From positions 902,696 through 966,695 of the forward strand of contig NZ_JARPUQ010000001.1 of the NCBI RefSeq assembly GCF_029537735.1: 64,000 nucleotides of DNA, in the 5' to 3' direction. The first letter of the stretch is position 1. Each line of letters opens with the position of its first letter. The notes under the pieces are model-generated. The model had not been told where the DNA came from, searched no databases, and worked only from the letters and a program-made list of their open reading frames with translations. Shown piece by piece: positions 24,583 to 61,104 of the stretch. Source of the DNA: Robiginitalea aestuariiviva (GTDB lineage Bacteria; Bacteroidota; Bacteroidia; Flavobacteriales; Flavobacteriaceae). The translations under genes were made by a program, and so were the position numbers.

Positions 24583-25419
24583 TCAGTACCGACGGAAATA
24601 ATACGTTAAGGCCGAATATTGACCCGTAAAGAGGGCGCAACCATTGGAATACATTCCTTTGAAAAACCCCCGGATCATTGGGAATCGTTTTTGGCGATAG
24701 CGCTCGGATAACCAGGCCACATAAAAGGCATCCATCCACATGGGCCGAATTTGTGTACAGGTAAACCCATAAGGCTGCAGGGTATTTTGGATCCCCTGGC
24801 GCGAAAAATGCCACAAGTGGCGAGGCACATCATAGCCGGCCCAATGGCCTGCATAATGCCGAGCATCCCAGGATTGATAATTGGGCAGTGCCAGTACGAG
24901 TAACCCGCCGGGTTCCAGGTGTGCCTGCAACCAGTTTAGCTGTACCTCCAAATCCGGGATGTGTTCCAGCACATGCCAGAGGGTAATGACATCGAACTTC
25001 TGTGCCGCAATAGTATGCAAGTCTGGATGCAATTCCACCCCTTTTTGAAGCGCCTGTTTCCGCGCTTCGGCATTGGGTTCCATTCCTTGGGCCTCGAAAC
25101 CTTTTTCCCGGGCTTTGCGTACAAAGGCCCCGGTTCCGGCACCCAGGTCCAACAGGCGTCCTTGGGTCGGAATGACACGGGCAATGCCTCCTAATTTGCG
25201 GGATAGGTTAAGGGCGCGGGCGCGGGCATAAAACCAGCCCAAAAGACCGCTTCCTCCATCCGTATGGGAAAGGTAGTCCGGGCTGTCGTAATATCGGCTC
25301 AGGTCTTCCGGGCAGGGTCGGGTACACAAGACCCCTTCCGTGCCTGCAGGCACCACATGGAACCCTTCCCCGCTCACCATAAAGTCTCGGGTTTCCATAC
25401 CGCCTTCCTTTTGCTTCAT
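24583..25419 (-). CDS. Class I SAM-dependent methyltransferase
   Basis: A 278-residue protein with motif I of SAM methyltransferases (LLDLGAGTGAFVRKAREKG), then GMEPNAEAR, FDVITLWHVLEHIPDLE and LEPGGLLVLALPN, followed by DVPRHLWHFSRQGI. This wording is typical of the UbiE/COQ5-like subgroup often found near surface-sugar or lipid genes. The N-terminal part (VLCTRPCPEDLSRYYDSPDYL) resembles family members that carry a Cys motif before the catalytic domain. The substrate is unknown. ATG 25419 is my choice; 25464 or 25398 are also possible. It follows mnmG, separated by one parS site. Confidence 0.82.
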   Translation of the reverse strand: MKQKEGGMETRDFMVSGEGFHVVPAGTEGVLCTRPCPEDLSRYYDSPDYLSHTDGGSGLLGWFYARARALNLSRKLGGIARVIPTQGRLLDLGAGTGAFVRKAREKGFEAQGMEPNAEARKQALQKGVELHPDLHTIAAQKFDVITLWHVLEHIPDLEVQLNWLQAHLEPGGLLVLALPNYQSWDARHYAGHWAGYDVPRHLWHFSRQGIQNTLQPYGFTCTQIRPMWMDAFYVAWLSERYRQKRFPMIRGFFKGMYSNGCALFTGQYSALTYYFRRY

Positions 25420-25467
25420 GCTAATATGTTGACCCATTTGCCCTAAAAATAGTATAAAATACAAAAG

Positions 25468-25483
25468 TGTTCCACGTGGAACC
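25468..25483. promoter_or_regulatory. parS-like ParB-binding site, left of mnmG
   Basis: TGTTCCACGTGGAACC matches the parS consensus TGTTNCACGTGNAACA at 15 of 16 places, with a perfect 14-bp palindrome inside. It touches the mnmG stop codon and lies in the gap before the methyltransferase gene. ParB binding is inferred. Confidence 0.82.
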
Positions 25484-27351
25484 TACCTGCCCAGGAACAC
25501 CAGGAGTACGCTCAAATCGCTTGGCGAAACCCCACTAATGCGGGAAGCCTGGGAGAGGGTTGCAGGGCGGATATCGGTTAGTTTCTCCCGGGCTTCAAAG
25601 GAAAGCGACTTTACCTGATGGTAATCAAACCCTTCGGGGATACGCACATTCTCCAGGCGTTGCAGTTTATCCGCATTGGCCTTCTCCTTTTCGATATAGC
25701 CTGCATATTTAACGGCAATTTCTGCCTGCTCTAAAACCTCCTTGCCCAGGCCTTCCGCTTCTACATAATCGGACACTGCTTTCAATTGCAGCATGTGTTC
25801 CATCTGCACCTGAGGACGAGAAAACACCCGGTGCAGTTTATCCGCCTGTGTTACCAGGCTGGACCCTACCTGCTCCAGGATGGGATTTACTTCCTCCGGT
25901 TGATAACTGGTACTATTGATAAAGGCAACCAACGCTTCGCTGGCCTCCTTCTTTCTACACATTTGCCTGAACCTTGCCTCACTGGCCAGCCCCATCCGGT
26001 AACTTTTTTCGGTAAGCCGTAAATCCGCATTATCCTGCCGGAGCAACGTCCGATATTCCGCGCGGGATGTAAACATCCGGTAAGGTTCTTCCGTCCCTTT
26101 GGTAATCAGGTCGTCAATAAGAACCCCGATATAAGCCTCGTCCCGCCTCAGTATGAAGGGATCTTTTTCATTTAATTTCAGATGGGCATTAATGCCAGCC
26201 AACAGACCTTGGGAGGCAGCTTCTTCATACCCCGTGGTGCCGTTGATCTGCCCGGCAAAATACAGATGGGAAACCAATTTCGTTTCCAGGGTATGCTTGA
26301 GTTGCGTAGGCGGAAAATAATCGTATTCGATGGCATAGCCCGGTCGAAAGAATTTTACTTTTTCAAATCCAGCCACGGCCCTCAGGGCAGAAAATTGAAT
26401 ATCCTCTGGCAGGGAGGTAGAAAAACCATTTACATAAACCTCTACCGTATTCCAGCCTTCCGGCTCCACAAAAATCTGGTGCCGATCCTTGCCTGCAAAC
26501 CGATGTATTTTATCTTCTATAGACGGACAATACCGTGGTCCTATACTTTGGATGTTCCCATTAAACATGGGTGAACGATCAAACCCTTCCTTAAGCAGGT
26601 CGTGAACGAGGCTACTTGTATAGGTCATAAAACAGTCCCGCTGCTTTAGGAGCTTCCCGGTATCCAAATAGGAAAACCGATCAGGATTATCATCCCCGGG
26701 TTGAGGAATCATTTTGGAATAATCCAGACTTCTCCCATCTACGCGTGGGGGTGTACCGGTTTTCATCCGGCCCGAGTCAAAGCCAAGGGCGGTTAACTGT
26801 TCGGTTATTCCTGTGCTCGCCCGTTCCCCCGCGCGACCCCCACCAAAATTTTTGATACCGATATGTATCAGTCCATTTAAAAAAGTACCATTGGTCAGGA
26901 TTACCGCCTTTGCCCGCACATCTATACCCAATGCGGTACGTACGCCTACAACGCGATCTCCTTCTACTAAAAGCGCACTTACCATTTCCTGGTAAAAATC
27001 AAGATTTGGCGTTTGCTCCAGCATGGTGCGCCATTCCTCAGCAAAACGCATCCGATCATTCTGGGTGCGCGGGCTCCACATGGCAGGACCTTTGGATTTA
27101 TTGAGCATTTTAAATTGAATGGCGGATCGGTCACTGACAATGCCACTATATCCACCTAAAGCATCAACCTCGCGAACAATCTGTCCCTTGGCGATGCCCC
27201 CCATGGCCGGATTACAGCTCATTTGCCCAATCGTCTGAAGATTCATGGTAATGAGTAGGGTATGCGAGCCCATATTGGCCGCAGCAGCGGCAGCCTCACA
27301 CCCTGCATGCCCGCCTCCGACTACAATTATGTCATAATCCTTTCCGAACAT
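25483..27351 (-). CDS. mnmG: tRNA U34 carboxymethylaminomethyl synthesis enzyme, FAD subunit
   Basis: With MnmE it makes the cmnm5 modification at wobble uridine of several tRNAs. The 622-residue protein has the FAD motif IIVVGGGHAGCEAAAAAANMG, then NPAMGGIAKGQIVREVDALGG, GTFLNGLIHIG and PPRVDGRSLDYSKM. RYCPSIEDKIHRF, GQINGTTGYEEAASQGL and TSRAEYRTLLRQDNADLRLT follow. The end (RISGVSPSDLSVLLVFLGR) is the usual C-terminus. It is flanked by two parS-like sequences. In many bacteria mnmG (gidA) lies next to the replication origin. Confidence 0.97.
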   Translation of the reverse strand: MFGKDYDIIVVGGGHAGCEAAAAAANMGSHTLLITMNLQTIGQMSCNPAMGGIAKGQIVREVDALGGYSGIVSDRSAIQFKMLNKSKGPAMWSPRTQNDRMRFAEEWRTMLEQTPNLDFYQEMVSALLVEGDRVVGVRTALGIDVRAKAVILTNGTFLNGLIHIGIKNFGGGRAGERASTGITEQLTALGFDSGRMKTGTPPRVDGRSLDYSKMIPQPGDDNPDRFSYLDTGKLLKQRDCFMTYTSSLVHDLLKEGFDRSPMFNGNIQSIGPRYCPSIEDKIHRFAGKDRHQIFVEPEGWNTVEVYVNGFSTSLPEDIQFSALRAVAGFEKVKFFRPGYAIEYDYFPPTQLKHTLETKLVSHLYFAGQINGTTGYEEAASQGLLAGINAHLKLNEKDPFILRRDEAYIGVLIDDLITKGTEEPYRMFTSRAEYRTLLRQDNADLRLTEKSYRMGLASEARFRQMCRKKEASEALVAFINSTSYQPEEVNPILEQVGSSLVTQADKLHRVFSRPQVQMEHMLQLKAVSDYVEAEGLGKEVLEQAEIAVKYAGYIEKEKANADKLQRLENVRIPEGFDYHQVKSLSFEAREKLTDIRPATLSQASRISGVSPSDLSVLLVFLGR

Positions 27352-27352
27352 A

Positions 27353-27772
27353 TTAATGTTTCACGTGGAACAATTTCATGGCTGCATCTTCCGCCTTTCT
27401 CATTTTATTCCGTTCGGCATCTGTGCTATCCTGCATTCCCAGAAGATGAAGTATGCCATGTATCATAACCCTGCGCAATTCGTCCTTGAAGTCTACACGG
27501 TAATCCCGGGCATTGTCTTTGACGCGATCGACAGAAATAAAAATATCACCGGTAACATCATCCCCAGCTGAATAATCAAATGTGATGATATCGGTATAAT
27601 AATCATGCTTTAAATATTCTTGATTCATTGCCAGAAGTTCCTCGTCATCCAGAAAAACATATTGGATTTGGCCTGGCTCCCGTTCATATTCCCGAATGAT
27701 CGTTATAATCCATTCGGTATATTTATCGGTATCAGTTAAAGCGAAGTCAGTTTTGCTATGGTAGTCAATCAT
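27353..27772 (-). CDS. ybeY: Endoribonuclease YbeY
   Basis: Metal-dependent RNase for 16S rRNA 3'-end maturation and ribosome quality control. The 139-residue protein has the zinc site in HGILHLLGMQD and the preceding DIITFDYSAGDDVTGDIFIS. The family third His is at HxxxxxGxxD-H in most members; here the end reads MQDSTDAERNKMR, so the third ligand is not obvious, as in other Bacteroidota sequences. The start overlaps the DUF4175 gene by 8 bp. Its last codons contain a parS-like sequence. Confidence 0.92.
   Translation of the reverse strand: MIDYHSKTDFALTDTDKYTEWIITIIREYEREPGQIQYVFLDDEELLAMNQEYLKHDYYTDIITFDYSAGDDVTGDIFISVDRVKDNARDYRVDFKDELRRVMIHGILHLLGMQDSTDAERNKMRKAEDAAMKLFHVKH
27357..27372. 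promoter_or_regulatory. parS-like ParB-binding site inside the 3' end of ybeY
   Basis: TGTTTCACGTGGAACA matches the parS consensus TGTTNCACGTGNAACA at all 16 places. It encodes the end of YbeY (LFHVKH) and lies 6 bp from the mnmG start codon. ParB binding is inferred from the sequence. Confidence 0.87.
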
Positions 27773-30700
27773 TACCTTTAAAATACTGCCGAACCTTATC
27801 CTTGTAACGGCCGCGCAAAGGTAATACTTGTTTATTCAAAATTTCCACCTCTATTTCCTTCTCTTGCAGCAGGATTGGTCTCGAAAAGACCGGGTTGGTA
27901 AATGACCTGATATTGGTTTGGCTTTCTCGTTCTTCCCTTTCGCCTTGTGAGAGCTCCGCATCCTCCAGGCGCAGTAATTGTTGCTGAATACGATTTAATC
28001 GCTCCCCCGTACGCTGGGTTATCCCATTACGCAGTAAATCCGATTCAAACCGTTCCATTTCCTGCAGAATACCCTTAGCCAAGTCCTGATCACTTTTACG
28101 AATCATGTCCTCTAACTGGCGTTCCAGGGCCGCCCGTATCCGTTGCTGCTCCTTATAAATTTCAAATACTTCAGCCAATTGGGTCTCATTTAATCCCTGA
28201 CCCCGTTCTCCCTCCTGAGGATTGCCATTCCCCTGGTCGCCTTGACCCTGATTATCTGATTGCTTATCCCTTTGTTCACCCCTATTCTGTCCCTCTCCCT
28301 GACTGCCTTGAGCCCCGTCTCCCTGAGCGGAACCCGAGGGCGACCCTTTAGGTGTTCCCCCTAGGCCTTCCTGCAATTCTTGTTGACTTTTAATGATATC
28401 CGGCAATTGCATGCCTTCTCCCTGCCCCTGACCTGCGCCCATTTGCAGCGACTGCTGCATATTCTCCAGGATTTCGGCCAAAAGCGCCGCTAAATCATTA
28501 GAGGCCGTAATAACGTACTGGGAATAAGATGTGGCCCGATACCATTGGTTTTCGGCAAGACTTTCTATTCCCTTGTCCAGATTATAGTAAACATCGGTAA
28601 CCTTTTGATTGACCTCTTCTCCCAGTTCGGGTCGTCGTAAGGACAGGGTAAACAGACTGTCATCCACATGTTCAAACAACTCCTTTAATTCCTGTTGGGC
28701 CCGAATGTCGCCGGAGATGCTCATGGTGGCATTTTCCTTATCCCGAACCTGATCGAACAGTAGTTCTTCTTTGAAAGAGAAAACCAATAAATTATCCAAT
28801 ATCTGTCTTAACACTTCCGCATCCTCAGCACTATCGGATGAACTGCCGGACATACTCATGCCTGAAAGGGCATCTGAAAGCTCCTGCATCATACGGGCAG
28901 CATTCTTTTGTGCCCTTTTTGCATCCGAAGGCGCGTTATTCCCGGAGGCATCATTCGCCTCCTCAGGCATTTGTTGCTTAATGGCGTCAAGGGCCTGTTC
29001 CTGATTATCCGAAACCGATTTCTCCTTGCCTTTATCGCGTTTCCAGTCTAAGGGCTTTTGCAGTTGTTGATTGTCACGTTCCAACTCCCCAAGCTCCTTC
29101 CCAATATTTTGAAAATCCTCTATTAAATCCTCCTGTACGTCCGCCTCCCGCTCCGGGTTCGCATAATTAATCTGACCCAACGTATCCTGCTCCCTGGCTA
29201 ATTGGCCAAGCTTCTGGGCCAAGACCCGGCTGCGCTGTTCGACAAAATAACGCTTGGTTAATTCCAGTATTTGTTCCAGGCTTCTTTGATTATTGTTTTG
29301 TTGCCTGGATATTTCCTCTAACCGCTCCTGTAGTTCTTCCTTTTCCAGTTGATCTAACACCTCCTGTAGTTCCTCCATCAGGCGGGCATTTTTTTGAGCT
29401 TCCAGCTCTTGTCGCTCCAGTCGCTCCTGCAATAATTCCTTAAACGGGGTTTTTTCCTCTGTTTCACTGAGGCTTTTGGATAATTCCCGATTGTACTTCT
29501 GCATTAACTCCTCCTGCTGGAACTGACGTTCCATTATATCCCTTAACTCCCTTTGTTCATTATACGAGAGTGTTTTTTGTTCCAGGTTATCCTCTTGCAT
29601 TTGCTCCATGGCTTCACGTAATTCCTGACCCGTCTCAATCTGGTTTTCCATTTTTCGAAACAAGCCCTGTTGCGCCTCAATCCGTTCCTGCCTTAGAATG
29701 AGCTCTCCTTTATTCTCCAACACAAAGGTTTGGCTACGGGTTTCCTTACCGCCCCTTAACCCATCGTTATCGGATACCACAAACTCCAGGGCATATGACC
29801 TGTCTGGCAATACATTCAGGCCTGAAGGATACGTATAATAAAACCGTTCACGTCGGGATTTACCGCCTGGAATGTTCAGCCTGATAACTGAATCAGGCAT
29901 TTCCGTAGGCCAGACCTCAAGTCTTATCCCGTCCAGCCCATAGTCGTCTGCAGCTTCCCCTTCAAAATACAAAAGCCCGGGTTGCAGGGAGTCCATATGC
30001 ATCCGGACATCCAACTCCGGATACTGATCCGTAACCACCGAAATGGCATAGGCTATTTTATCGAAGTCCCTAACGCCTGTATTGGAGGTGCTCAGGGTAT
30101 AATTCTCTGATGTCCTGAAGACCTTTTCCAGGGTAAAAACCTGACCTTCCCTTTTAAAATTCAAGGTATCCCCGCTATCCTTATAAGTTACCGTATCAGT
30201 ATGAACAGCACCTATCTGCCAGGATACTTGTGTTCCTTCAGGCACCGTGGCGTTTCCGCTTCCCCTTAAACTCTCAGCAGGCCGATTTAAATATGTGGGA
30301 TACTCCAAACGCATTTCCATGCGCTCAATCATGGGAACATCAAGCACCTGTAATTGATACCCGCCGGACTGCACAGACCCGGAACGGAAATAAAATTCTG
30401 TAGTTTGAAGTGGTGGCCGTAAGGTATACGTGAACTCCCCCTGAGATGCTTCCATGAGCAAAGGAGAACCGCCGATGACCACTTCAGGATTATCGGGCCG
30501 GATATCCCCAACCGTCCTTACCCGCAACACCACCGTTTCATTCTCAAGTACAACCAGTTTTGTGTTCACCAACTGAAACCTAAATGGTGCCGGAGGGGTA
30601 TATGCCATTTCATAATGCCTTATTCGTTGGTATGACTCCCACCAATCCAGGGCCTTTCCACTTATTGCGAGGATCATTACTATAACTGCAGGAATGGCAA

Positions 30701-31166
30701 GGTACCTGGCGTACCTCCATACAGTCCTCCACGGTAAAGCTTGGGTAAAATTAACCCCTTTCAACGCCTCAGATCGCTGTTCTATACTAGCCAGTAACAA
30801 CTCCGATCGCTCCTGTTCCTGCCCCAATTCTATCAGGTTAAGCAAGCGGTCCCCTATTTTGGGAAAATGCCGACCGATAATCCTGGCGCCTTCCTCTGCG
30901 CTCAGGCCCTTCCGTATGCGAAACAAATACAAAGCCGGGCGCAACAGATAGTGAAGGACCAAACCTAACAGTATCAGGGCTAAAAACCAGAACATCACCA
31001 GACGGGCCCTTTGCCCCATCCAAAGCCAATACTCCAGGCCCGCCATCAGGATGACCAACAAGCCCCCCACAACGAGGGTAAGGATCAGGCCAATTACCAA
31101 TTGCCGTTGATAATACCTGACATAAAACCCTTTCAGTTTGCCTAAAATTTCGTTGTATCGGGACAA
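27765..31166 (-). CDS. DUF4175-family large membrane protein
   Basis: A 1133-residue protein. Two membrane segments lie near residues 22-45 and 56-75, and a third near 155-170. A beta-rich exported part (about 190-500) follows, then a very long Gln/Glu/Arg-rich coiled-coil region (about 500-720), a second helical region, and a low-complexity Gly/Gln/Ser linker near residues 930-985. It fits DUF4175, known mainly in Bacteroidota, with no established function. The topology suggests an inner membrane anchor with a long periplasmic rod, perhaps structural. It begins the run DUF4175-ybeY-mnmG, with an 8-bp overlap into ybeY. It is divergent from alkB. Confidence 0.85.
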   Translation of the reverse strand: MSRYNEILGKLKGFYVRYYQRQLVIGLILTLVVGGLLVILMAGLEYWLWMGQRARLVMFWFLALILLGLVLHYLLRPALYLFRIRKGLSAEEGARIIGRHFPKIGDRLLNLIELGQEQERSELLLASIEQRSEALKGVNFTQALPWRTVWRYARYLAIPAVIVMILAISGKALDWWESYQRIRHYEMAYTPPAPFRFQLVNTKLVVLENETVVLRVRTVGDIRPDNPEVVIGGSPLLMEASQGEFTYTLRPPLQTTEFYFRSGSVQSGGYQLQVLDVPMIERMEMRLEYPTYLNRPAESLRGSGNATVPEGTQVSWQIGAVHTDTVTYKDSGDTLNFKREGQVFTLEKVFRTSENYTLSTSNTGVRDFDKIAYAISVVTDQYPELDVRMHMDSLQPGLLYFEGEAADDYGLDGIRLEVWPTEMPDSVIRLNIPGGKSRRERFYYTYPSGLNVLPDRSYALEFVVSDNDGLRGGKETRSQTFVLENKGELILRQERIEAQQGLFRKMENQIETGQELREAMEQMQEDNLEQKTLSYNEQRELRDIMERQFQQEELMQKYNRELSKSLSETEEKTPFKELLQERLERQELEAQKNARLMEELQEVLDQLEKEELQERLEEISRQQNNNQRSLEQILELTKRYFVEQRSRVLAQKLGQLAREQDTLGQINYANPEREADVQEDLIEDFQNIGKELGELERDNQQLQKPLDWKRDKGKEKSVSDNQEQALDAIKQQMPEEANDASGNNAPSDAKRAQKNAARMMQELSDALSGMSMSGSSSDSAEDAEVLRQILDNLLVFSFKEELLFDQVRDKENATMSISGDIRAQQELKELFEHVDDSLFTLSLRRPELGEEVNQKVTDVYYNLDKGIESLAENQWYRATSYSQYVITASNDLAALLAEILENMQQSLQMGAGQGQGEGMQLPDIIKSQQELQEGLGGTPKGSPSGSAQGDGAQGSQGEGQNRGEQRDKQSDNQGQGDQGNGNPQEGERGQGLNETQLAEVFEIYKEQQRIRAALERQLEDMIRKSDQDLAKGILQEMERFESDLLRNGITQRTGERLNRIQQQLLRLEDAELSQGEREERESQTNIRSFTNPVFSRPILLQEKEIEVEILNKQVLPLRGRYKDKVRQYFKGND

Positions 31167-41483: not shown

Positions 41484-44400
41484 ATGAGACCAGCCACACT
41501 CAGATATGCGTTTATCCCCCTGTTACTCCTTTGGGCAGTAGCAGGCTTCGCACAGGAATTCAACTCCTTTGATATTCGTTACCAAAACAATATCAAGGGA
41601 GATCTGACTTTTATCGCCAACAACATTGTGAGCCGGGACGATGGAAGCGGGTCCCCCGAGGACCCGTACAACGCCACCGGAAGCGCCTCCACCTACAATG
41701 ACTGGCTCAATATGCAGTACATTGACGTGGACTCGGATCCGAGCACGTTCAGTTCCAGTGCTGCCACTTTTACCTTTCCGGAGGCCAGCTGTAATCTGAT
41801 CCGGTATGCCGGACTTTACTGGTCCGCCACTTACCCCAGCGAGCAGGCCGGCCAGGCCGTAGGCACTAACCGGCAAAGCGACTTTAACCAGGTTAAGTTC
41901 CAGGTGCCAGGCGGCACCTACGTGGATATAACGGCCGATGAGGTCATTTACGACGGATTTACCAGCGCGGACAATTCCGTGCGCCAGAACAGCCCCTATG
42001 CGTGCTACGCGGACGTAACCAGCATTGTTTCCGCCCTGGCCAACCCCGAAGGCGAATACACCGTGGCAAATATTCGCTCCGTAACGGGTTCCCTGTCTCC
42101 TGGAGGCGGGGCGGCCGGGGGCTGGACGCTGGTGGTGGTCTTTGAAAACCCTACCCTGTCCGGGAAGCTGATCACGACCTTTGACGGCTTTGCCCGCGTG
42201 CGCAGCCAGAACCCGACGGTAGACATTAACTACTCCGGTTTTAACACCATCCCCGCCGGCCCGGTGCGCGCCGATATTGGCGTTGCCGCCCTGGAAGGGG
42301 ACAACCGCATTACCGGCGACCAGCTGCAAATCAGCGCCGCCAGCGTAGCCGGTTTTACCAACATCAGCGACGCAGCCAACCCGGTAAATAACTTTTTCAA
42401 CAGCAACATTAGCGAAGATGGCAGTGTAGTGACCGCCCGTAACCCCAACAGCGTGAATACGCTGGGGTACGACACGGACATGTTCCTTCTGGCCAACCCG
42501 CTGAACGCGGTAATCCCGAACAACGAAACGGCCGCTACCTTCCGGTTCACCTCTACCGGAGACCAGTACTACCCGTTTTTCAACTCGTTTAACATCGAGA
42601 TCATCGAGCCCAACATTGTGCTCGAGAAACGCGTGGAGGACATTGCGGGCAACGACATTACCGGGGCCGGCGTAAACCTGGGCCAGTTGCTGGATTACGT
42701 GCTCACCTTCCAGAATATCGGCAACGACGGGGCCACGAACTACACCATTCGGGACATCCTGCCTATCAATGTTACCCTGGATGAGACCAACATGACCCTG
42801 CCGGCCGGGGTAACCTATACCTACGATCCGGGCACACGAGAAGTGATCTTTACCATTCCGGATAACCTGGTGGAAGAAGGGGACCCCACCTACAGTATTC
42901 GCATGCGCGTTCAGGTGGCCGAGAACTGCTTCGATTTTATCGATGCCTGTACGGACCTGATCCAGAACCTGGCGTATTCCACCTACCAGGGGGTAATCAA
43001 CAACAACCAGATTACCGACGACCCCAGTGTTTCGGACTTTGACGCCTGTGGTTTTGTAACCCCGGGGGCCACCAACTTCCTGCTGGACGACCTGGAAAAC
43101 TGCGATTTCTCCCGTACGGTAGAGCTCTGCGGAAACGACGTATTACTGGATGCCGGGGACAATTTTGACAGCTATGTCTGGTATGTGGATAACAATGCCG
43201 ACGGGCTAATCGACGCCGGCGACACCGTGATTACCGACGGAGACCCGGACAACGACCCCAGTACCCTGCTGGTTACCGAAACCGGACAGTACATCGTAGA
43301 CAAAATTGTGGCCGACCCCTGTAAGGGCTTCGAGGAAATCATCACCGTAACCCTGCCGGGCCAGACCCAGACCAACCCAATCATAACCCTGATCAACGAC
43401 CCCAACAATACCGTTGACGGGGAAGTGGTTACCTGCCCCAACGACGGGGACCTGCTGCCCAAGATCTTCCTCTGTGGGCTGAATGACACGGAACTCATCG
43501 AAATCAACATCCCGGATGCCACCAGCATTGTTTGGGAAAAACTGGACGAAGCCAGTTGTGCGGATGCCGGGGACGACTGTGCCAACAAAAACTCCGCCTG
43601 CACCTGGAACCAGGTAGACACCGGTTTTGATTTCCTGGCCTCGGATGCCGGGGAATATCGGGTAGTGATCAACTACCAGAACGGATGTTTCACCCGCTTT
43701 TACTTCAACATCTTTAAAAACCCGCTGGACCCGCAGTATACCTCCCAGGATATCATCTGCGCCTCCCCGGGGAATATTACTGTAACCAACATTCCCGCGG
43801 ATTACGAGTTCCAGCTGCTGGACGCCACCAACGGGAATGTACTGGTGCCTTACAGCGCCGGCAACGGACCCAGCTTTGACATCGCTACCAATGGCGCCTA
43901 CACCGTAGCCATGCGCCAGGTTGGGGTAGTGGACGGATGCGAATTCTTTGTAGAAAACATCGGAATCCTGTCCCGGGATTTCCAGGTGACCATGACCCCT
44001 ACCGCAGCGGACTGCTCCGGTCTTGGCTCCCTGGCCATCTCTGTGCTGGATGTGGAACCCCAGTACTACTATGAAATTTCCCAGGGGGGAACCCCTGTGG
44101 ATACTTTCGGGCCCAGTGCGGACAATAATTACACTTTTGCCGGGCTGAACCCCGGGGTGTACGACGTGGAAGTCTCTACAGACGACGGCTGCCTGCACAC
44201 CCAGCAAATCACCATTGAGGACAATAGCGATCTGGAGCTGACCGCCCGGATTTCCCAGCACATTACCTGTAAGGAAGGGAACATCCTGATGGAATCCACC
44301 GGCGGGAAGACCCCGCACACCTATGCCATCTGGTCTTATGTGGACGACGACGGGGTAACCCAGATTTCCTACCCGGACCCCTCTGCCATCCCGGCTTCTG

Positions 44401-47400
44401 CCTTCCAGACCAGCCAGATCTTTGATATCTGGGATCCGGGAACCTACACTTTTGTAGTGGTGGACCGCAATAACTGTTTTGACATCTCCAACCCGGTTGT
44501 AATTGAATTCCGCCCAGCTGCCGAATTCGACGCTACCACGGTTACTGATGTTCTGTGTTATGGAGAGGCCACCGGGGCGATTCAGTTCAATCTGATAAAC
44601 AGCAATGGATACCAGCTTACCTACTACCTGTTTGACGCTACCGGATTCAACGAAAACAACTACAACTACGCCAATGCCCTGGCCACTAATGCCTCCGGGT
44701 ATTTCCCCGGCCTCACAGCCGGCGACTACGTAATCGTAATCAACCAGCGCAAGGGTAGTGCTTCCTGCGATTATTTCGAGTATCAGACGGTGTCCCAGCC
44801 CCAGTTTGCCTTGAGTGCAGACGCGGTGCTCACCCAGGCCTATACCTGCCTGCAGGACGGTATTATCCAGGCCCAGAACGTGATCGGGGGAACGGCCCCC
44901 TACGAGTACAGCCTGGACGGGGTTAACTTTGGCGCTTCCGACACCTTTACCGGCCTGACTGCCGGCACATACAGCATTACCCTGCGGGATGCGGCCGGGT
45001 GTACTTTCGTAACCGCCCCCATCACGATTGATCCGCTCCTGGCGCCGGACGACCTGGTTTTTGCCCCTACGGCAGTAACCTGCCCCGACCAGACTTCGGA
45101 TGTAACCGTGACCGTTTCCAACGGCACTGCGCCCTATACCTTCGAAATTATTGCCCCGGCCGCCGGGGTGCCGGACAGCGCTTCCGGGAACTCGGCCTCC
45201 TTTAATGGCCTGGCCCCTGACACCTATACCTTCCGGGTAACCGATGCCAACGGCTGTACCTACCAGGAGAACCTGACCATTAACCCCATTACGCCTATTG
45301 CCGTAAACGGGCAACAAATCAGCACCGTAAGCTGCTTTGGCGGCGCAGACGGGGAGGCCGTATTCAACGTGGCCGGCTTTGCCGCCTCCTTTGATTACAC
45401 CGTTAGCGGGCCCGCAAGTTCTTCCGGCACTGCGGAGACCAACGGCACCATCTCCCTTACCGGCCTTGCCGCCGGCACTTACGACATTACAGTTACCGAT
45501 ACAGATACCAACTGTACGGATACCGCTTCCGTAACCATCGAGGCTCCGGCCAACCCTCTCGCCTTTACCTTTACCACTACAGCTATTAGCTGTGTAAGCG
45601 ACGGCGCCGTGACCATCTCCGCCACAGGAGGGTGGGGCAGCTACAGTTATAGCCTGACCCAACCCGATGCAACCGTACTCGGACCTCAGGGCAGCGCTAC
45701 GTTTAACAACCTGACCCAGGCGGGAACCTACACCATTACCGTAGCGGATGCCAACGGATGTGTGGCCACAGACACCTTTGGCCTGGTGGCTCCGTCCCTG
45801 CCCGTAATAAGCCTTGACGCAGCCACAGACCTGTGTTACGATCCGGCCACAGGGGTTACCCTTACCGCCAACGTAACCGGAGGCACTGCCCCCTTCTCCT
45901 TCAGCCTGAACGGCGGGCCCGGACAGTCTTCCAACACCTTCTCGGGCCTGGCTCCGGGGAGCTACACCGTAATAGTGGCGGACAGCAACGGCTGTACGGA
46001 CACCTCTGCCGCAGTAACCGTAGCCCCCCAGCTTTCCGCTTTGGCGGTACTGACCAAGGAACTGGATTGTTCCGCCAGCCCCGACGCCGTTATTGACGTA
46101 ACCATAAATGGCGGCTACGCTCCCTTTACCTACCAGGTAAACGGCGGGGCTTCCGTGGCCGTAGCTGGTAATGCATTTACCTATACCACCGCAACGGATG
46201 GCACCTTTACCTTCACCATCACCGATGCGGAGGGATGTACCACCCAGACCGCAGTAACTGTTAGCCCCATCACCAACCCCGTGGCCACGCATACCGCAGT
46301 GGACCCGACCTGTGCGGGGGATGCCGATGGCTCTGTTACCATTACCGTGGACCCGAATTTTGGCACTGCCCCCTACCAGATCGATTTCAACGGGGCCGGG
46401 TTCAGCAACCAGACGGTTTACAGCAACCTGCCTGCAGGGACCTACACCTATCAGGTGCGGGATAGCAAAGGTTGTTTGTACTCCGGTTCGGTAACCCTTA
46501 CCGCCCCGGACCCGATTGCAGCCGATGCCGTACTGATCCAGGCCTACACCTGTTTGCAGGATGGTTCTATCCAGGTTCAGAATGTAACCGGGGGAACACC
46601 CGGCTACACCTATAGCATTGACGGGGTAACCTTCCAGGCCTCCGACACCTTTACCGGGCTTACCGAGGGCTCCTATACCATCACGGTACAGGATGCCTCC
46701 GGGTGTACCTTTGTGACCGTACCGGTGGTGATTCCGCCCCTGGACCCGCCCACGGACATCAGCTTTAGTGCCACCCCTCCGTATTGCCCCACGCAAACTT
46801 CGGACGTGACCCTTACCGTAACCGGGGGCACTGCGCCCATCACCTACGAAATCATTGCCCCGGCTGCAGTAAACAACGGCAACAATAATGTATTTGCCGG
46901 CCTGGCTCCGGATACGTATACCTTCCGGGTTACGGATGCCAACGGCTGTTCCTATCAGGAAAACTTCACCATTAATCCCGTAACCCCTATTGCCGTAACC
47001 GGATCCCTGGTCAACAATGTGAGCTGTGTGGGCGGTGCCGATGGTGCAGTAGACTTTGCAGTGACCGGATTTGCTTCTACCTACGCCTATTCCGTAAACG
47101 GAGGAGCAACGGTAACCGGGCAATCCGCTGGGGTAATTAACCTGACCGGCCTTTCCGCAGGCACCTATACCATTGCCGTAACCGACGAAACCACGAATTG
47201 TACCGATACCGCTGCCGTAACGGTAAGCGAACCGGCCACCCCCCTTGCCTTTACCTTTGCAGTAACCCCCCTAACCTGTGTGGCAGACGGTGCTGTAAGC
47301 ATCACCGCAACAGGCGGATGGGGCTCCTATACCTATCAACTGGAGCAACCGGACACCAGTGTTTTGGGCCCGCAGGGCAGCAATACCTTCTCCGGCCTTA

Positions 47401-50400
47401 CCCAAACCGGCACGTACACCATTACCGTTGAAGACGCCAACGGATGCGTGGTAACCGACACCTTTGACCTGGTTACCCCCTCCAGCCCGGTGGCGAGCAT
47501 TGATGCCGCATCCACCCTCTGCTTCAGCACGCCCGCCGGCGCCACGATTGTAGTGGGCGTGACCGGAGGCACCGCTCCCTTCTACTACAGCATGAACGGC
47601 GGGGCCCTGCAGACGTCCAACACCTTTGCAGGCCTGGTTCCGGGCAACTATACCTTTACCGTTACAGATAGCAACGGTTGTACGGACACCGTGGCCCAGA
47701 CTATAGAGCCGGAGCTTACCGGCAATGCCGTCCTGCTGAAGGACCTGGATTGTACGGTTTCTCCCGATGCCGAAATTGACGTTACGGTAAGCGGCGGATA
47801 TGCGCCCTTTACCTACGAAGTGGACTACAATGGCGGCGGCTTTGCCCCCTACGCAGGTGCATTCCCCTATACCACGGCTGCCGCTGGCACCTACCAGTTC
47901 CGCATTACAGACAGCCAGGGCTGTGTGGCCCTGACCAATACGGTAACGGTGAGCCCGATTGTGTTGCCCCAGGCCACAGCCTCTACCATTGACCCCACCT
48001 GTAACGGGGATTCCAACGGAATCATTGAAATTGAAGTGGACCCCAACTTTGGGCAAGCGCCTTATCAGGTGGACTTTAACGGGATGGGCTACAGCAACCA
48101 GACCGTCTATACCGGGCTGCCTGCCGGCACCTACAACTATACCGTACGGGACGCCAAAGGATGTCTGTACACCGATAGCGTAACCCTGAATGATCCGCCC
48201 CTGTTCGATGCCAACATCACAGTAACCGATGTATCTTGTAGTGGCACCGTGGGCGGTGGAGACATTCCTGGACGTATTGATATCTCCATCATTAGCGGTG
48301 GAACCCCTGGCTTTACCTATACCCTGTACGACCAGTCCAACAACATTGTACCGGTAACCGGGTCTAACCCCATTGTGACTTCCAGTACCACGGTGAGCTT
48401 TGACGGCCTGCTATTCGGGGATTACTACGTGCGCATCATTGATGCCAACGGATGTGAATTCTACCAGAACCCGGTGCGGGTGCGGGCTAACCCGTTCCTG
48501 ACCCTGGATTCTTCCGTGATTGCGGATTGTGCCACCGGAGGAACCGTAACCCTGTCTGCCGACGGCGGATCCGGAGATTACACCTTTAGCATTTATGGTC
48601 CCGGGACCCCTCCGGATAGCGAAACATCCGGCCCGGGTGCCCTGGAGGAACAAGCCGTATTCCTTGGCCTGAACGCCGGACAGACCTATGTGTTTGAAGC
48701 CATTGACAACTCTACCTTGTGTACCAGTTATGTGGAGGTGGCCATCCCCGCCCTTTCCGGGATTGAGGTGGTTCCCACCCCTGCCGTTACCGATGTAAGC
48801 TGCTTTGGGGATACCAATGGCTCCATTGCCTTCCAGTTCCAGAACTTTGACGGCAGCGTTACCGATATCAACTACTCCATCCTGGAGGCCCTTACCAATA
48901 ACCCCACAGGGTTTACAGGCACGGTTACCGGCCCTGCCGGAGGCCCGACGCCCCTGGAGACCGTTACCGGCCTGGCGCCCGGGGATTATGTGCTTTACTT
49001 TGAAGAGGCCACCAGCCCCTTCTGTTCCAATACCTACGATTTCCGGATTTTGGAGCCTTCGCCCATCACCTTCAACATCGTAGACCAGAACAACGCCAAC
49101 TGTAATGAGGACGCCCAGGTTACCGTACAGGCAACCGGAGGTTCCGGCGGCTTTACCTATGCCTTTGTACAGGATGGGGTAGCCCCCGTACCCGGCGACT
49201 TTACCGCTAGCAGCTACGCCGAACTGGACCCGGCCGTGAACACCAACTGGGATGTTTACGCCATGGATGTTAATGGATGTATGACCCCTCCCCTGGATGT
49301 GGTAATTGCTGCAGATCCCGAGCCGGTGATTTCCGGCGTTACCTACCAGTGTACTGCGGACGAAGGCGATATGGTTATAGACGTTACCTTGGATATAGCC
49401 GGGGTAGCCCCCTATTTCCTGAGTCTGGACGGCGGCGCTTTCCAGTCTTCTTCCCTGGTAAATGCAGGGGATGTCCAAACCCTTACCGGTCTGAGCTCCG
49501 GCACGCATACCATTACCATCCGCGATGCAAATGGGTGCGGGAACACCATCAATGTAGAGATCTATCCGCCTTCGCACCTGACCACCGAGGCCCTGATCCA
49601 GCCTACCTGTGCCCTGGATGACGGACAAATCCTCCTTACGGCCTATGGTGGCTCGGGGGCTTACCAATACGAACTCTTTCTGGGTGGGGTAAGCGTAACT
49701 GGCGCGCCCCAGGCCAGCCCGCTCTTTACCGGGTTAGGGCCGGGAACCTATACGGCCTTTGTATACGACACCCTGGCTTCCGGTTGCGACGCTTCATCCA
49801 GTATTGTATTGAGCGTGCCCACCACTGTGGCCTTTACCACCAATATTACCGATGTAAGCTGTAATGGCGGCGCAGACGGCATTATTGAAGTGGTCCTGGA
49901 TCCCGGCATGGACAACCCGCCCTATACCTACCAACTGTTTGACGCCCTGGGCATCGTGCCCATTACCGGGCCGCAAACCAGCCCGCTCTTTACCGGGTTG
50001 GCCCCCGGCGATTACACCGTAAGCGTTACCTCCGGCCGCAGCTGCCAGACTACTGAAGTGGTCACTGTAGGCGAGCCGCCTCTGGTAACGGCCACAGCTG
50101 CCGCCACGGACTTTGCCTGTAACGCAGACAATTCCGTTGCCCAGGCTGTCATTACCGTAACCGGAGGAGGAGGCACTGCCCCCTACCTGTACAGCATAGA
50201 CGGGGTAAACTTCCAAACAGCCAATACCTTCAACATCAGCGACACCGGCGCGTCACAGACCTTTACCGTTTACGTTCGGGATGCCAACGGGTGTATGGAT
50301 ACCGATTCCATTACCATCGACCCGCTGCCGGTTATTACCGATGTTAGTGTAAGCCAGCTGGTTGCCATTACCTGTGCCAACGACGAGCAGGTACGCGTAA

Positions 50401-53400
50401 CCGTAACCGGTGGCTCCGGAGATTTTGACTTTGAACTCCTGCCCCCGGGAAGCGCCCCGGTTCAATCCCCCGGCGCCGGCGTATACACCGCCGACTTTAA
50501 CCTGACAGCCCCAGGAGACTACGTCTTCCGTATTACCGATAACACCACCGGATGTACCTTCACCTCAGCACCTTATACCGTAGCCCCCTACGACCTGATC
50601 GAGGCTGTGGCTACGGCTGTAACCCCGGTAGATTGCTTTGGCGATGCCACCGGTGAACTCTCGCTGCAGGTGAACAACTACACCGGGAATTACACCTATC
50701 AGGTCTTTGACGGGGCCGGTACCCCGGTAACCGGCGTTGTAGCTGCCAGCACGGCAACCAACCCCATCCTGATCGGAAGCCTCTCCGGAGGAAACTACTA
50801 CGTGGAAGTCATTGCAACAGATGCACCCTTCTGCGACGATCTCTCCAATACGGTAACCATTGCCTCCCCGGCAGCCCCGGTGAGCCTGGTGGAAACCGCC
50901 AACATCAATGCCAATTGCAACACCGGTGCCCAGGTAACCGTGGCTGCCAGCGGCGGAACCCCAGGCTACACCTATGCCTTTGTGCCCACAGGGAATGTGC
51001 CTGTGGCAGGAGATTACTCCACCAGCGCTACCGCAACCCTGAGCCCGGCTTCCTACCCGGCCGATTACGATGTGTACGTTCAGGACAGCAATGGATGTAC
51101 CACCTTTATCACCGTGACGGTAGATGAGGACCCCCTGCCGACCGTTACCGCCCCGGTTTATGCCGTGGACCAGTGTACCTCCGACGGTACCAGCTATACC
51201 TTTACCGTAGCCGGTACAGGCGTAGCCCCGCTTAGCTACAGCATTGGCGCAGGATTCCAAAGCTCCACCACCTTTACTGTAAGTGCCCCGGGCACCTACA
51301 CCGTAACGGTGCGCGATGCCAACGGCTGTACCGCTACCGATACCATTACCATCCTGCCCCCGCTGGCCCTCACGCCTCAGCCTACAGCACAGCCTACCTG
51401 TGCGCTGAACGACGGGGAGATTACCATCGCTGCAACCGGCGGTTCCGGTAGCTATGCCTACGACCTGCTGGATAACGGCGGGGTTAGTGTGATCGGTGGG
51501 GTGCCTCAGGCCTCCCCGGTATTCTCCGGCCTGGCTCCGGGTAACTACACCGCCGTGGTATACGACACTTCCGGTACCGGTTGTGATGCCCAGGCACCGG
51601 TTTCCCTGGAAACGCCCACCCCGGTGGCCTTTACCACAACCGCACAGGATGTAAGCTGTGCCGGTGGAGCCGATGGCGTAATCACCGTTACCCTCGATGC
51701 CGGACAGGACAACCCGCCCTATTCCTACGAGCTCTACGACGGCTCCATGGCTCTGGTGGCAGGCCCCCAGGCTTCCAATGTATTTACCGGCCTGGTTGCC
51801 GATAACTATACCGTACGGGTTATCTCCGGACGCAACTGTGAGGCCAGCCAGGCACAACCCGTGGCTGAGCCAGCACCTATGGCGGTTTCGGCAGTAGCAA
51901 CGGCTTTTGCCTGTGCCGCGGATAATTCTGTGAACACGGCTACCATCACGGCCACAGTACCGGCAGGTGCAGGCACTGCACCCTACCTGTACAGCCTGGA
52001 TGGCGTGAATTTCCAAACCTCCGCTACCTTTGAGGTGGCCGACACCGGGATGGCACAAAACCTGACCGTGTACGCCCGGGATGCCAACGGTTGTATGGCC
52101 ACGGCCCCGATTACCCTGGAGCCGCTGAACACCTTTACCGCAGCGGTAAGCCAGAACATCGCCATTACCTGTATCAATCCCGAGGAAGTGCTGATTACCG
52201 TTACCGACGACGGCAACCCGGCCAACACCTACACCTTCGAGTTGCTGCCTATAGGCAACCCGGATGGGGTGCTGACCGCTACGCCCACCAATACCTCGGC
52301 TATTTTTGAACTGAGTGCCCCTGGTAGCTATGTCTTCCGGGTTACAGATAACGCTACCGGCTGTTATGTGACTACCGCCCCTTATGAGGTAGCACCCTAC
52401 GACCTGGTACAGACCCAGATTACCCCGGCCACCCCGGTGACCTGCTTTGGTGGCACAGACGGGTCCCTTACCCTGGAAGTGAACAACTATACAGGCACCT
52501 ACGATTACGAGGTGTTCTTTGCCGACGGTACCACCACCGGCATATCCGGCAGCGCGGATACCGGGGTAAACCCGATTACCATCAATGGCCTCAGTGGCGG
52601 CAACTACTATGTGCGTATTACGGAAACCGCAGCGCCCTTCTGTACGGAAGACAGCAATGTGATTACCATCGTGTCTCCGGATATGCCGCTGACCACTGCC
52701 GTAAGCCAACTGGCCGACGTAACCTGTACCAACGACCAGGGCGAAGTGCTGGTAACCCCCACCGGCGGATATGCCCCCTATGACCTGGTGCTGACCAACA
52801 CCACAACCGGGCAGGTATACACCGCCAATGATGTGGCCGGCTATGTGTTTACAGGCCTTAGCGAAGGCGCGTACACCGTTTCGGTAACCGATGCGGCCGG
52901 GTGTGTGGCCAACGATGCCATTACCCTGGTACAGCCTGTACCGGTAAGCGCGGATATTACAGCCGCCCCCAACGTCCTGACCTGTTACGGGGATACCGAC
53001 GGGGTGGTGACCGCCATCAACGTGGCTGGCGGATCCGGCAACTATCAATACCAGCTGAATTACTACGATGCTACCGGAACCACCATCGAGTTCACCTCCG
53101 GTGAGCAAAGCAGCCCGGTATTCACTGGTCTGGGTGCAGGCACCTACAGCATCACCGTAACGGACGGATGGAACTGCGACGTGGAAACGCCCCAGGTTAC
53201 CATTACCGAGCCTACGGATGTCATGAGCAACCTGGTGCAGTCTGCGATGCTGACCTGTACCACCAATGCCGAACTTATCCTGACCGCAAGCGGCGGGACC
53301 GCACCCTACGAATTCAGTACTGATGGGGTGAATTATACGCCCATGTCCGGAGGGGATACCCACACCTTTAGCGTGGCAGATGGCGTTTACCAATACTACG

Positions 53401-57881: not shown

Positions 57882-60068
57882 CTATCGTTTGCCGATCAGG
57901 GCAAAATCCAGGTGGCGTTTGATCAGGTCGGTGTGTTTGACCATCACGCGAACCTCATCCCCCAGCTGGTAAACGGAACCTTTGCGTTCCCCTACCAGGG
58001 CATACTGCCTTTCATCAAAGGTATAATAATCATCCTTTAAATCCCGGATCCGGACCATGCCTTCGCACTTGTTTTCGACGATCTCCACGTAAATACCCCA
58101 TTCGGTTACCCCGGAGATCACCCCATCGAACTCCTGGTCGCGATGGTCTTCCATGAATTTTACCTGCATGTACTTCACTGAATCCCGCTCGGCATTGGCT
58201 GCCAGGATTTCCATGCTGGTGGAATGTTTGGCCTTTTCCTCATAGGTCTTTTCGGCCGGGGTCTTCCCGCCCTTCAGATAGTGGTCCAGCAACCGGTGTA
58301 CCATCACATCCGGATAACGGCGGATGGGGGAGGTAAAATGGGTATAATAGTTAAAGGCCAGGCCGTAGTGTCCGATATTCTGGGTACTGTATTCGGCCTT
58401 GCTCATGCTTCGGATAGCCAGGGTATCTACCAGGTTTTGCTCCTTTTTCCCTTTTACATCCTCCAGCAACTGGTTAAGCGAACTGTTCAGGGATTTCGGA
58501 TTTTTAAAATCCAGGCTATGGCCAAAGCGCTTCACAATACCGTTCAGCACCATGAGCTTATCTTCGTCCGGACGGTCATGAACCCTATAAATAAAGGTCT
58601 TAACCGGCTGTTGCTTCCCGATAAAGGCCGCTACTTCCCGGTTGGCCAGCAACATAAACTCCTCAATGAGTTTGTTGGCATCCTTGCTTTCCTTTACATA
58701 CACCCCTACAGGCTGGTTGTTCTCGTCCAGGTGGAATTTAACCTCCACCTTATCGAAAGAAATCGCGCCATAGTCCATCCGCCGGCGGCGCATGATCTTG
58801 GCCAACTGGTCCAGGGTGGTAATCGCATCCACCAAAGCCCCTTTTACCTGATATGCCCCTTCTTCCCGGATGGAAACCGTTTCGGGGATCTCGCCTTTTC
58901 CGGTTTCTATAACATGCTGGGCTTCCTCGTAGGCAAAACGCTCGTCCGAGTGAATAGCCGTACGGCCAAACCACCGCTTTTTCACCTGCGCATTGGCATC
59001 CAGTACAAATACGGCAGAAAAGGTGTATTTATCTTCGTGGGGCCGCAGGGAGCAGGCATTATTGGAAAGGATTTCGGGCAACATGGGCACTACCCGGTCT
59101 ACCAGGTATACCGAGGTGGCGCGCTCATAAGCTTCCTCTTCCAGCAGGGTATCTGCCTGCAGGTAATGGGATACATCGGCAATATGGATACCTACCTCCA
59201 CGTCCCCGTTCTCCAGGGGGCGAAAAGACAGGGCATCGTCAAAATCCTTGGCGTCTTTCGGGTCGATGGTAAAGGTGAGTACATCGCGGAAATCCTTTCT
59301 GCGGGCTACTTCAGCCTCATCGATACGAGTATCCAGCGCATTGGCCTCGGCCTCAACTTCCGGCGGAAAACGATAGGGTAAACCATATTCGGCCAGGATG
59401 GAATGGATTTCGGTATCGTGTTCCCCCGGAATTCCGAGTACCTCGATCACCTTACCGAAAGGCGAATCTGCATCTTCAGGCCAATCCAGCATTTCCACCA
59501 GCACCTTTTCATGCTCCTTGGCTCCCTGCAAGTCATCCAGACGCACAAAAATATCGGTATACATCCGGTGGTCTGTAGGGCGTACAAAGGCAAAACTCTT
59601 ATACGTATCCACAATCCCGACAAAGGCGGTCTTCTTGCGCTTTACCACCTTGAGGATCTTTCCTTCCGGCCGGCTTTGTTTACGCTTCTGAAACAATTGT
59701 ACCTCCACGGTATCTCCGTGAAAGGCCCGATTCAGGTTGGGATAACTCACAAAGATATCCTCCTCCAGTTCTTCGGTAACCACATAGCCGTTCCCCTGGG
59801 AGTTTACATCCAGGGTGCCCGTAAAACTGGTGGGAACATATATGGCTTTGTACTTGCCGCGTGCGGGTTGGGCAATCCGATTCTTTTCGGCCAGTTGCCC
59901 CAGGCGTTTGATCAGCAGGTTTCTTTGGTCGGTACTGGTAATCTGTAGTTGTGCGGCAATTTGCTTGTAATTAAAGCTCTTTTGAGGTTCCGCCTCCAGT
60001 ACGGTGAAAATTCCCTTGGTAACTTCATTGTTCAAGTGGTTCTTCGCCCGCTTCTTCTTCTTCGACAT
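57882..60068 (-). CDS. rnr: Ribonuclease R
   Basis: A 728-residue processive 3'-5' exoribonuclease that degrades structured RNA. A basic N-terminus (SKKKKRAKNHLNNEV) with a winged-helix-like part comes first, then two cold-shock domains, and the RNB domain with catalytic Asp residues in TIDPKDAKDFDDALSF. HIADVSHYL and RMDYGAISFD are next, then the HFTSPIRRYPDVMVHRLLDHYL motif, and the C-terminal S1 domain (FDGVISGVTEWGIYVEI). It is the first gene of the rnr-GIN-LysE run and faces a 604-bp intergenic region. Confidence 0.95.
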   Translation of the reverse strand: MSKKKKRAKNHLNNEVTKGIFTVLEAEPQKSFNYKQIAAQLQITSTDQRNLLIKRLGQLAEKNRIAQPARGKYKAIYVPTSFTGTLDVNSQGNGYVVTEELEEDIFVSYPNLNRAFHGDTVEVQLFQKRKQSRPEGKILKVVKRKKTAFVGIVDTYKSFAFVRPTDHRMYTDIFVRLDDLQGAKEHEKVLVEMLDWPEDADSPFGKVIEVLGIPGEHDTEIHSILAEYGLPYRFPPEVEAEANALDTRIDEAEVARRKDFRDVLTFTIDPKDAKDFDDALSFRPLENGDVEVGIHIADVSHYLQADTLLEEEAYERATSVYLVDRVVPMLPEILSNNACSLRPHEDKYTFSAVFVLDANAQVKKRWFGRTAIHSDERFAYEEAQHVIETGKGEIPETVSIREEGAYQVKGALVDAITTLDQLAKIMRRRRMDYGAISFDKVEVKFHLDENNQPVGVYVKESKDANKLIEEFMLLANREVAAFIGKQQPVKTFIYRVHDRPDEDKLMVLNGIVKRFGHSLDFKNPKSLNSSLNQLLEDVKGKKEQNLVDTLAIRSMSKAEYSTQNIGHYGLAFNYYTHFTSPIRRYPDVMVHRLLDHYLKGGKTPAEKTYEEKAKHSTSMEILAANAERDSVKYMQVKFMEDHRDQEFDGVISGVTEWGIYVEIVENKCEGMVRIRDLKDDYYTFDERQYALVGERKGSVYQLGDEVRVMVKHTDLIKRHLDFALIGKR

Positions 60069-60672
60069 TCAGGATTTTATTTCGGGCGAAATTACAAATA
60101 ATATCGCTAGCTGATTCCCAGACCAATACCGGGAACACAGCGCTTCATTCACAATCTTATACATATCTATATTTTTTTCTTTTTAAAATGAATGATTTTT
60201 GGGTATGATTATAGGGTGTTAATAGCGTGTAGAAAAACCTTGGCGGAAATTTGGAGAAACGGTTATTAAATAGCTATTAACAGAAAATCCCATCCCCAGA
60301 ATACTGGTATTACGTCTATTAATAGATTTCTAAACGGGTTTTCATAACCGCTATTAACGGGTTTTCCGGATTCTTTTTGGAGGTTATCCCTGTTCATTGG
60401 TTTTTCGCAACCTATAATAATCGGGGTAGAACTCCTGAAAACCTATGCTAGGATATCTGGGGAAAGATGCGTAATGAAGAAATCTCCCGGAATATCAAAG
60501 AGATCTTTTCAAATACTTATAGACAATTTCTTAACGTCTTCTTAACGCTATTATTGCAGCGCAGCGAACAAACTTCTTTGTGGCCTGTCTGCCTGTTGTG
60601 CCGGGTTAAAAATCAGCGGAATCCGCTACGGGTTTTGTACCTTTACCCTGCGCACCTGAAAAAAACATCCCT
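60069..60672. other. 604-bp AT-rich intergenic region with repeats, between divergent rnr and rpiB
   Basis: No supported gene. A 69-codon frame at 60467-60676 has no family features. Visible are GTTAATAGCG or its complement near 60218, 60273 and 60350, the palindrome CTATTAATAG (60316-60325), the direct repeat AACGGGTTTTC (60333-60343 and 60356-60366), and TTCTTAACG twice 11 bp apart (60528-60536, 60539-60547). A TACCTTTA string at 60638-60645 might be an rpiB promoter box. It could be a complex control region or a replication-related site. Confidence 0.55.
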
Positions 60673-61104
60673 ATGAAAATCGCAATTGGAAACGACCATG
60701 CCGGTACCGAATATAAACTGGCTATAATAGGTTTACTCAAGTCCATGGGGATTGAGGTATCGAACTATGGTACGGATGGTTCGGATGCTGTGGATTACGC
60801 AGATTTCATTCACCCCGTAGCCAGCGACGTGGCTTCCGGCGAGGCGGACTTCGGCATTATTATCTGCGGCAGCGGCAACGGGGCGGCCATGACTGCCAAC
60901 AAACACCAGGAAATCCGGGCGGCCCTTTGCTGGAACAAGGAGATCGTATCCCTGGCCCGCGAGCATAACAATGCCAATATCCTGAGTCTCCCGGCCCGCT
61001 TTATTGCCATTCCTCAGGCCCTGGATATGGTGCGCACCTTTCTCAACACCCCGTTTGAAGGCGGCCGTCACCAGCGCAGAATTGAGAAAATCCCGTGTAT
61101 GTAA
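60673..61104 (+). CDS. rpiB: Ribose-5-phosphate isomerase B
   Basis: Interconverts ribose 5-phosphate and ribulose 5-phosphate. A 143-residue RpiB/LacAB protein with IGNDHAGTEYK at the N-terminus, HPVASDVASGEADFGIIICGSGNGAAMTANK-type core (catalytic Cys in IICGSGNG), and AALCWNKEIVSLAREHNNANIL. The end is FEGGRHQRRIEKI. It is unrelated to RpiA. It begins a plus-strand run with the cation transporter after 21 bp. Confidence 0.95.
   Translation: MKIAIGNDHAGTEYKLAIIGLLKSMGIEVSNYGTDGSDAVDYADFIHPVASDVASGEADFGIIICGSGNGAAMTANKHQEIRAALCWNKEIVSLAREHNNANILSLPARFIAIPQALDMVRTFLNTPFEGGRHQRRIEKIPCM

Follow-up and report, generated by a model that had tools for sequence, protein, structure and literature searches.

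What do two 16-bp palindromes resembling parS, the chromosomal centromere site, do at the two ends of mnmG, and do they mark a place of chromosome segregation close to the replication origin? An earlier note, made on the 64-kb stretch of DNA analysed here (the window), had claimed both such a pair of sites and an origin-proximal segregation locus around them. We examined these claims in the window, in the whole genome from which it comes and in genomes of the order Flavobacteriales and beyond.

Two parS-like sites at the ends of mnmG

On the minus strand the genes and sites of the locus run in the order DUF4175-like large protein, ybeY, parS, mnmG, parS and SAM methyltransferase (Table 1). Both sites are present where the earlier note placed them, one inside the end of ybeY and the other touching the mnmG stop codon, with which it has base 25483 in common. 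The site at 27357 lies wholly within the end of ybeY and encodes the C-terminal residues ...KLFHVKH. The scores of 16 of 16 and 15 of 16 given by the note hold against the degenerate consensus TGTTNCACGTGNAACA, to which the site at 27357 has no mismatch and the site at 25468 has one; they do not hold against the strict consensus TGTTTCACGTGAAACA, where the mismatches rise to one and three, respectively. A third match to TGTTNCACGTGNAACA at up to two mismatches was absent from the window, again as the note had it, and its view that chance is unlikely to produce the pair agrees with an expectation of 0.11 such matches in the window and with the single shuffle, out of 100, that gave two or more.

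Table 1. Features of the mnmG locus and of the candidate origin, in window coordinates.
Feature	Position	Strand	Sequence or family match	Remark
Candidate oriC	60069..60672			AT-rich, 604 bp, separating the divergent rnr and rpiB; at the GC-skew minimum
YTATYAACR repeats	60217-60225, 60274-60282, 60351-60359			in the gap
rnr (RNase R)	57882..60068	-	Pfam RNB, E 1.2e-110	
rpiB	60673..61104	+	Pfam LacAB_rpiB, E 8.1e-56	
Large protein	27765..31166	-	weak DUF4175-like match, below the Pfam cut-off	upstream of ybeY
ybeY	27353..27772	-	Pfam YbeY, E 2.6e-27	last codons form the parS-like site
parS-like site 1	27357..27372		TGTTTCACGTGGAACA	inside the ybeY 3' end, 5 bp before the mnmG start codon
mnmG (gidA), 622 aa	25483..27351	-	Pfam GIDA, E 5.7e-159	bracketed by both sites
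parS-like site 2	25468..25483		TGTTCCACGTGGAACC	in the gap separating mnmG from the methyltransferase gene, at the stop codon of mnmG
SAM-dependent methyltransferase	24583..25464	-	Pfam Methyltransf_23, E 2.8e-30	3' side of mnmG

Across the whole genome (3,221,834 bases in four contigs) only two places match TGTTNCACGTGNAACA with at most one mismatch; these are 1.9 kb apart, both at mnmG, and comprise the only exact match of the genome (27357) and its only one-mismatch match (25468). The genome-wide count that the note had called for thus finds sites of this quality confined to the mnmG flanks and not spread evenly. At the two-mismatch level nine additional places appear, scattered over three contigs, and the backward control pattern is commoner there, with 23 matches against 11 per strand over the whole genome; we therefore treat this level as noise and only sites with zero or one mismatch as meaningful. 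Both sites are very probably parS, predicted docking sites for ParB.

Two other features of the window are recorded here. A 4481-aa open reading frame (41484-54929) directly precedes a PorP/SprF gene (54949-55911, Pfam), which together look like a giant surface protein with a type IX secretion partner. The low-GC stretch formed by positions 1 to about 6000 and C1:894-902 kb (0.31-0.44 against about 0.55) is perhaps acquired DNA.

A distant parAB and a nearby predicted replication origin

The genome has a ParB: a single ParB-family gene was found (TIGR00180, 166.4 bits, C3:93150-93683), directly after parA. Judged from their translations and not from a family search, the genes that follow it encode a membrane protein, DapB and LepB. 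The protein aligns with Thermus Spo0J 1vz0 (E 1.2e-50) and displays a visible GERRYRAS motif, which we take to have a role in CTP binding. Its closest solved structures are ParB/Spo0J chains. PDB chains of Noc, a ParB relative with its own binding site, also match and score close behind, so the family match alone cannot tell the two apart; however, the type of the site (parS) and the ParA neighbour of the only ParB-family gene found set it apart as ParB and not Noc.

In model bacteria parAB usually lie near parS, and the earlier note expected them close to the sites. Here they are on another contig. Given the place of mnmG at C1:928-930 kb of the 1,502,859-base contig C1, the distance to parB must be about 666 kb or more and that to dnaA (C2:1277533) about 593 kb or more. 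The same separation is seen in all 17 complete Flavobacteriales genomes, where parS lies 0.72-1.91 Mb from dnaA and 0.62-2.20 Mb from the best ParB match (five of the chromosome lengths used are rounded); a second, weaker ParB-like match occurs in three of the 17, in one of them (G109) about 285 kb from parS. Outside the order the distance between dnaA and parS varies, from ~34 kb (G321) through about 265 kb (G455) to about 1.0 Mb (G300), and in G569 a second, shorter DnaA match (C1:611061-612122, 432.6 bits) is about 29 kb from parS. The latter genome also has a full DnaA match at 415 kb.

The GC skew, which the note had proposed as a comparison, was read from forty sampled 20-kb stretches and the window. 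It is negative in 15 of 17 stretches from the start of C1 to the end of the window and positive in all nine from C1:967 kb to the end of the contig, while on C2 it is positive to about 1.0 Mb and then negative. The local cumulative minimum falls at ~C1:963-964 kb (window about 61,000), ~33 kb to the right of mnmG and the sites, a position precise only to some tens of kb because gene direction and unusual genes also shape the skew of the window. This turn from negative to positive makes the sites origin-proximal. dnaA was rejected as a marker of the origin, as it lies on C2, beyond the skew maximum. Neither outcome that the note had named as refuting it, a genome lacking ParB or a motif spread evenly away from the skew minimum, was observed, and its interpretation is supported except for the expected nearness of parA and parB. 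With parAB and dnaA far away, the locus is very probably an origin-proximal centromere and not a complete segregation locus.

Skew in eight complete relatives follows the same pattern. With rpiB taken as the origin and three spanning samples set aside, 21 of 22 samples to its left were negative and 20 of 23 samples to its right were positive; measured from parS, 21 of 24 left samples were negative and 20 of 24 right samples positive. The fit is poor in G095, where two of three samples to the right of parS are negative; in G019 the sign is wrong in two weak samples.

At the skew minimum lies the gap between rnr and rpiB, which we propose as a candidate oriC. The lowest-GC stretches of window positions 20-64 kb fall within it, as do three of the five YTATYAACR copies in the window, and in each of the 17 complete Flavobacteriales genomes rpiB is 3-55 kb from an exact parS. 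These repeats are common to relatives: 42 copies were counted in fourteen rnr-rpiB gaps where 2.2 would be expected, a count that is partly circular because the motif was derived from the same 14 gaps. Among 11 held-out Flavobacteriales rpiB loci, the part of the locus upstream of rpiB contains one or more copies in ten and three or more in four (L318, L319, L320 and L324); L325 has none. Outside the order, four rpiB-like matches have zero or one copy anywhere. Three YTATYAACR copies within 600 bp were found nowhere in 833 kb of samples from the genome itself or in 1.6 Mb of samples from the eight relatives. The canonical DnaA box TTATCCACA is absent from the gap and does not cluster near the skew minimum, with two perfect boxes in the sampled stretches of C1:860-1020 kb.

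Conservation of the bracket and its possible explanations

Of 296 sampled genomes of the order, 131 contain the exact sequence TGTTYCACGTGRAACA and none contains the backward control. ParB was found in 229 of the 296 and in 127 of the 131 with parS, the four exceptions being genomes that are 54-83% complete. When the hand cross-tabulation from which the latter count comes is restricted to good genomes (>=90% complete, <=5% contaminated, n=226), exact parS is present in 118 of 175 genomes with ParB and in none of 51 without. The ParB-negative genomes are nearly all of endosymbiont size (0.3-0.6 Mb) and from one family (f16), so the association partly reflects shared descent; and 57 of the 175 good ParB-positive genomes lack the exact site, so within part of the order the motif either drifts or is missing.

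Within the order, mnmG stands next to the exact site in 29 of 30 fetched exact-parS loci, and the remaining locus (L041, at a contig end) shows ybeY. We also examined 80 mnmG loci chosen by the MnmG protein and not by the motif, a redundant set in which ten are titled Flavobacterium and several Chryseobacterium. With at most one mismatch, a site lies within 500 bp 5' of mnmG in 74 loci, within 500 bp 3' in 68 and on both sides in 67. The flanks (79 kb) hold 175 sites, mnmG itself (149 kb) none and the remaining 521 kb 12, and seven rearranged control palindromes gave zero or one match each in the same loci. The methyltransferase is a conserved 3' neighbour, with a match in most of the 80. At up to two mismatches a site is near mnmG in 79 of 80; the exception, L160 from a Capnocytophaga MAG, has mnmG without sites and without its usual neighbours, and another contig of the same MAG carries three sites beside a methyltransferase homologue without mnmG. 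This case concerns one 5-kb contig and may be a binning error.

Some relatives carry the sites in arrays of 3-12. L124 (Flavobacterium sp. MC2016-06) has 12 parS-like sites upstream of mnmG, at distances of about 150-1200 bp; five are of the CACATG type and about 117 bp apart, like a tandem array. CACATG or CACAAG cores also stand beside mnmG in L137, L141, L142, L144 and L150 (Kordia, Tenacibaculum and one uncultured), a possible drift in ParB specificity. Two MAGs titled Limnohabitans and Chitinophaga (L104 and L138) have Flavobacteriaceae-like mnmG loci with the same bracket and 73-75% MnmG identity, and are probably mislabelled or contaminated.

Beyond the order, exact sites are present in 298 of 395 genomes of the phylum and the backward control in two. 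In 30 genomes chosen for having an exact site somewhere, a site with at most two mismatches is within 1.5 kb of mnmG in 24; two of the other six have exact sites at a distance of about 8-18 kb from it. Among parS loci of the same class, mnmG is within 1.5 kb in 15 of 22 and not in seven.

We hold with high confidence that the locus is a chromosomal centromere, with its parAB at a distance, that it lies ~33 kb from the origin, and that its bracket has been kept by selection. By analogy with the known parABS system, ParB made from the parAB operon elsewhere on the chromosome would recognise each 16-bp site, load there and spread, and ParA would move the loaded origin regions apart, with replication starting at the rnr-rpiB gap, about 33 kb from the sites, where the GC skew would place it. 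The two-sided placement at mnmG would be inherited and kept by selection acting on the DNA, even to the point of forcing the C-terminal residues of YbeY.

Three other explanations were weighed against the centromere, and the operator, terminator and peptide-constraint readings were each rejected as the main explanation. The palindromes could be operators for a regulator of mnmG or ybeY, bound by a CACGTG-binding protein unrelated to ParB, and the position of one site just before the mnmG start codon (the other following its stop) would suit such a role; yet the full 16-bp parS motif is matched, sites form arrays in some relatives and are also present on the 3' side of mnmG, the Capnocytophaga MAG has sites without mnmG and mnmG without sites, and high-quality genomes that lack ParB lack the sites as well. 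We consider this very unlikely. Still less probable is that the palindromes act as RNA hairpins, for instance terminators after ybeY and mnmG. They do stand near two stop codons, one with a short T run nearby, but in 194 sites with at most two mismatches the would-be loop CACGTG is nearly invariant and the arms show no covariation, C being paired with A at positions 5 and 12 in 39 cases; since these sites were picked by the motif, most positions were thereby fixed.

Among the 77 loci in which ybeY was found, 40 have a site overlapping its end, as does L124, which a 600-bp limit had missed; the tails there read like MFHVEQ. The remaining ybeY loci have an intergenic site and a different YbeY ending, and two sites are read in another frame. 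Because the site is intergenic where it does not code for the YbeY end, the DNA is what is kept. The idea that a conserved C-terminal FHVE/K peptide produces the motif as a side effect, as the coding of that tail in the overlapping loci might suggest, is thus largely refuted and scarcely credible, the more so as in the window the 3' site does not code for protein and a site follows mnmG in 68 of 80 loci.

Relation to known systems and significance

The arrangement resembles chromosomal parABS (Spo0J/ParB-parS) in its 16-bp palindromic site, its ParB and ParA and the clustering of sites near a skew-defined origin, and differs in that parAB and dnaA are 0.6 Mb or more from the sites and the sites bracket mnmG. 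In the available part of a study of 12 gut strains that include two Bacteroidetes, origins were placed by parS clusters and GC skew and did not always coincide with dnaA (PMC10197239), so a parS near the origin and away from dnaA is already known. Bacteroides caecimuris and Muribaculum intestinale from that work resemble the present case, a parS cluster and GC skew marking the origin; in contrast, neither mnmG nor a two-sided placement of sites is mentioned in that part of the source. gidA (mnmG) is listed among the classical origin genes in the available text on an ancestral origin cluster of gidA/gidB, parA/parB and dnaA (PMC2099444); here mnmG is likewise such a gene and stays with parS, whereas parAB and dnaA have moved away.

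In the literature searched, which took in few subscription journals, nothing was found that describes parS at mnmG for the Bacteroidota, nor the long-conserved two-sided mnmG bracket, its separation from parAB or a parS serving as the tail of YbeY. A bolder proposal, which we regard as unlikely though worth stating, is that parS-mnmG-parS is an ancient, phylum-wide fixed centromere unit of the Bacteroidota, left in place at the origin when parAB and dnaA moved away; that the gap upstream of rpiB is the Flavobacteriales oriC, with YTATYAACR as non-canonical initiator boxes; and that the bracket around mnmG serves a separate function, for example as a pair of ParB loading points that would coat the gene and tie its expression to replication or segregation.

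Taken together, these observations describe a centromere parted from its own segregation genes and yet pinned to one gene over a long evolution, and the overlap with parS accounts for the variation in the C-terminal tail of YbeY here. The parS bracket offers a sequence marker for the true origin in a large group where complete genomes are commonly rotated so as to begin at dnaA. The findings make chromosome segregation in the Flavobacteriales directly testable and name a candidate oriC.
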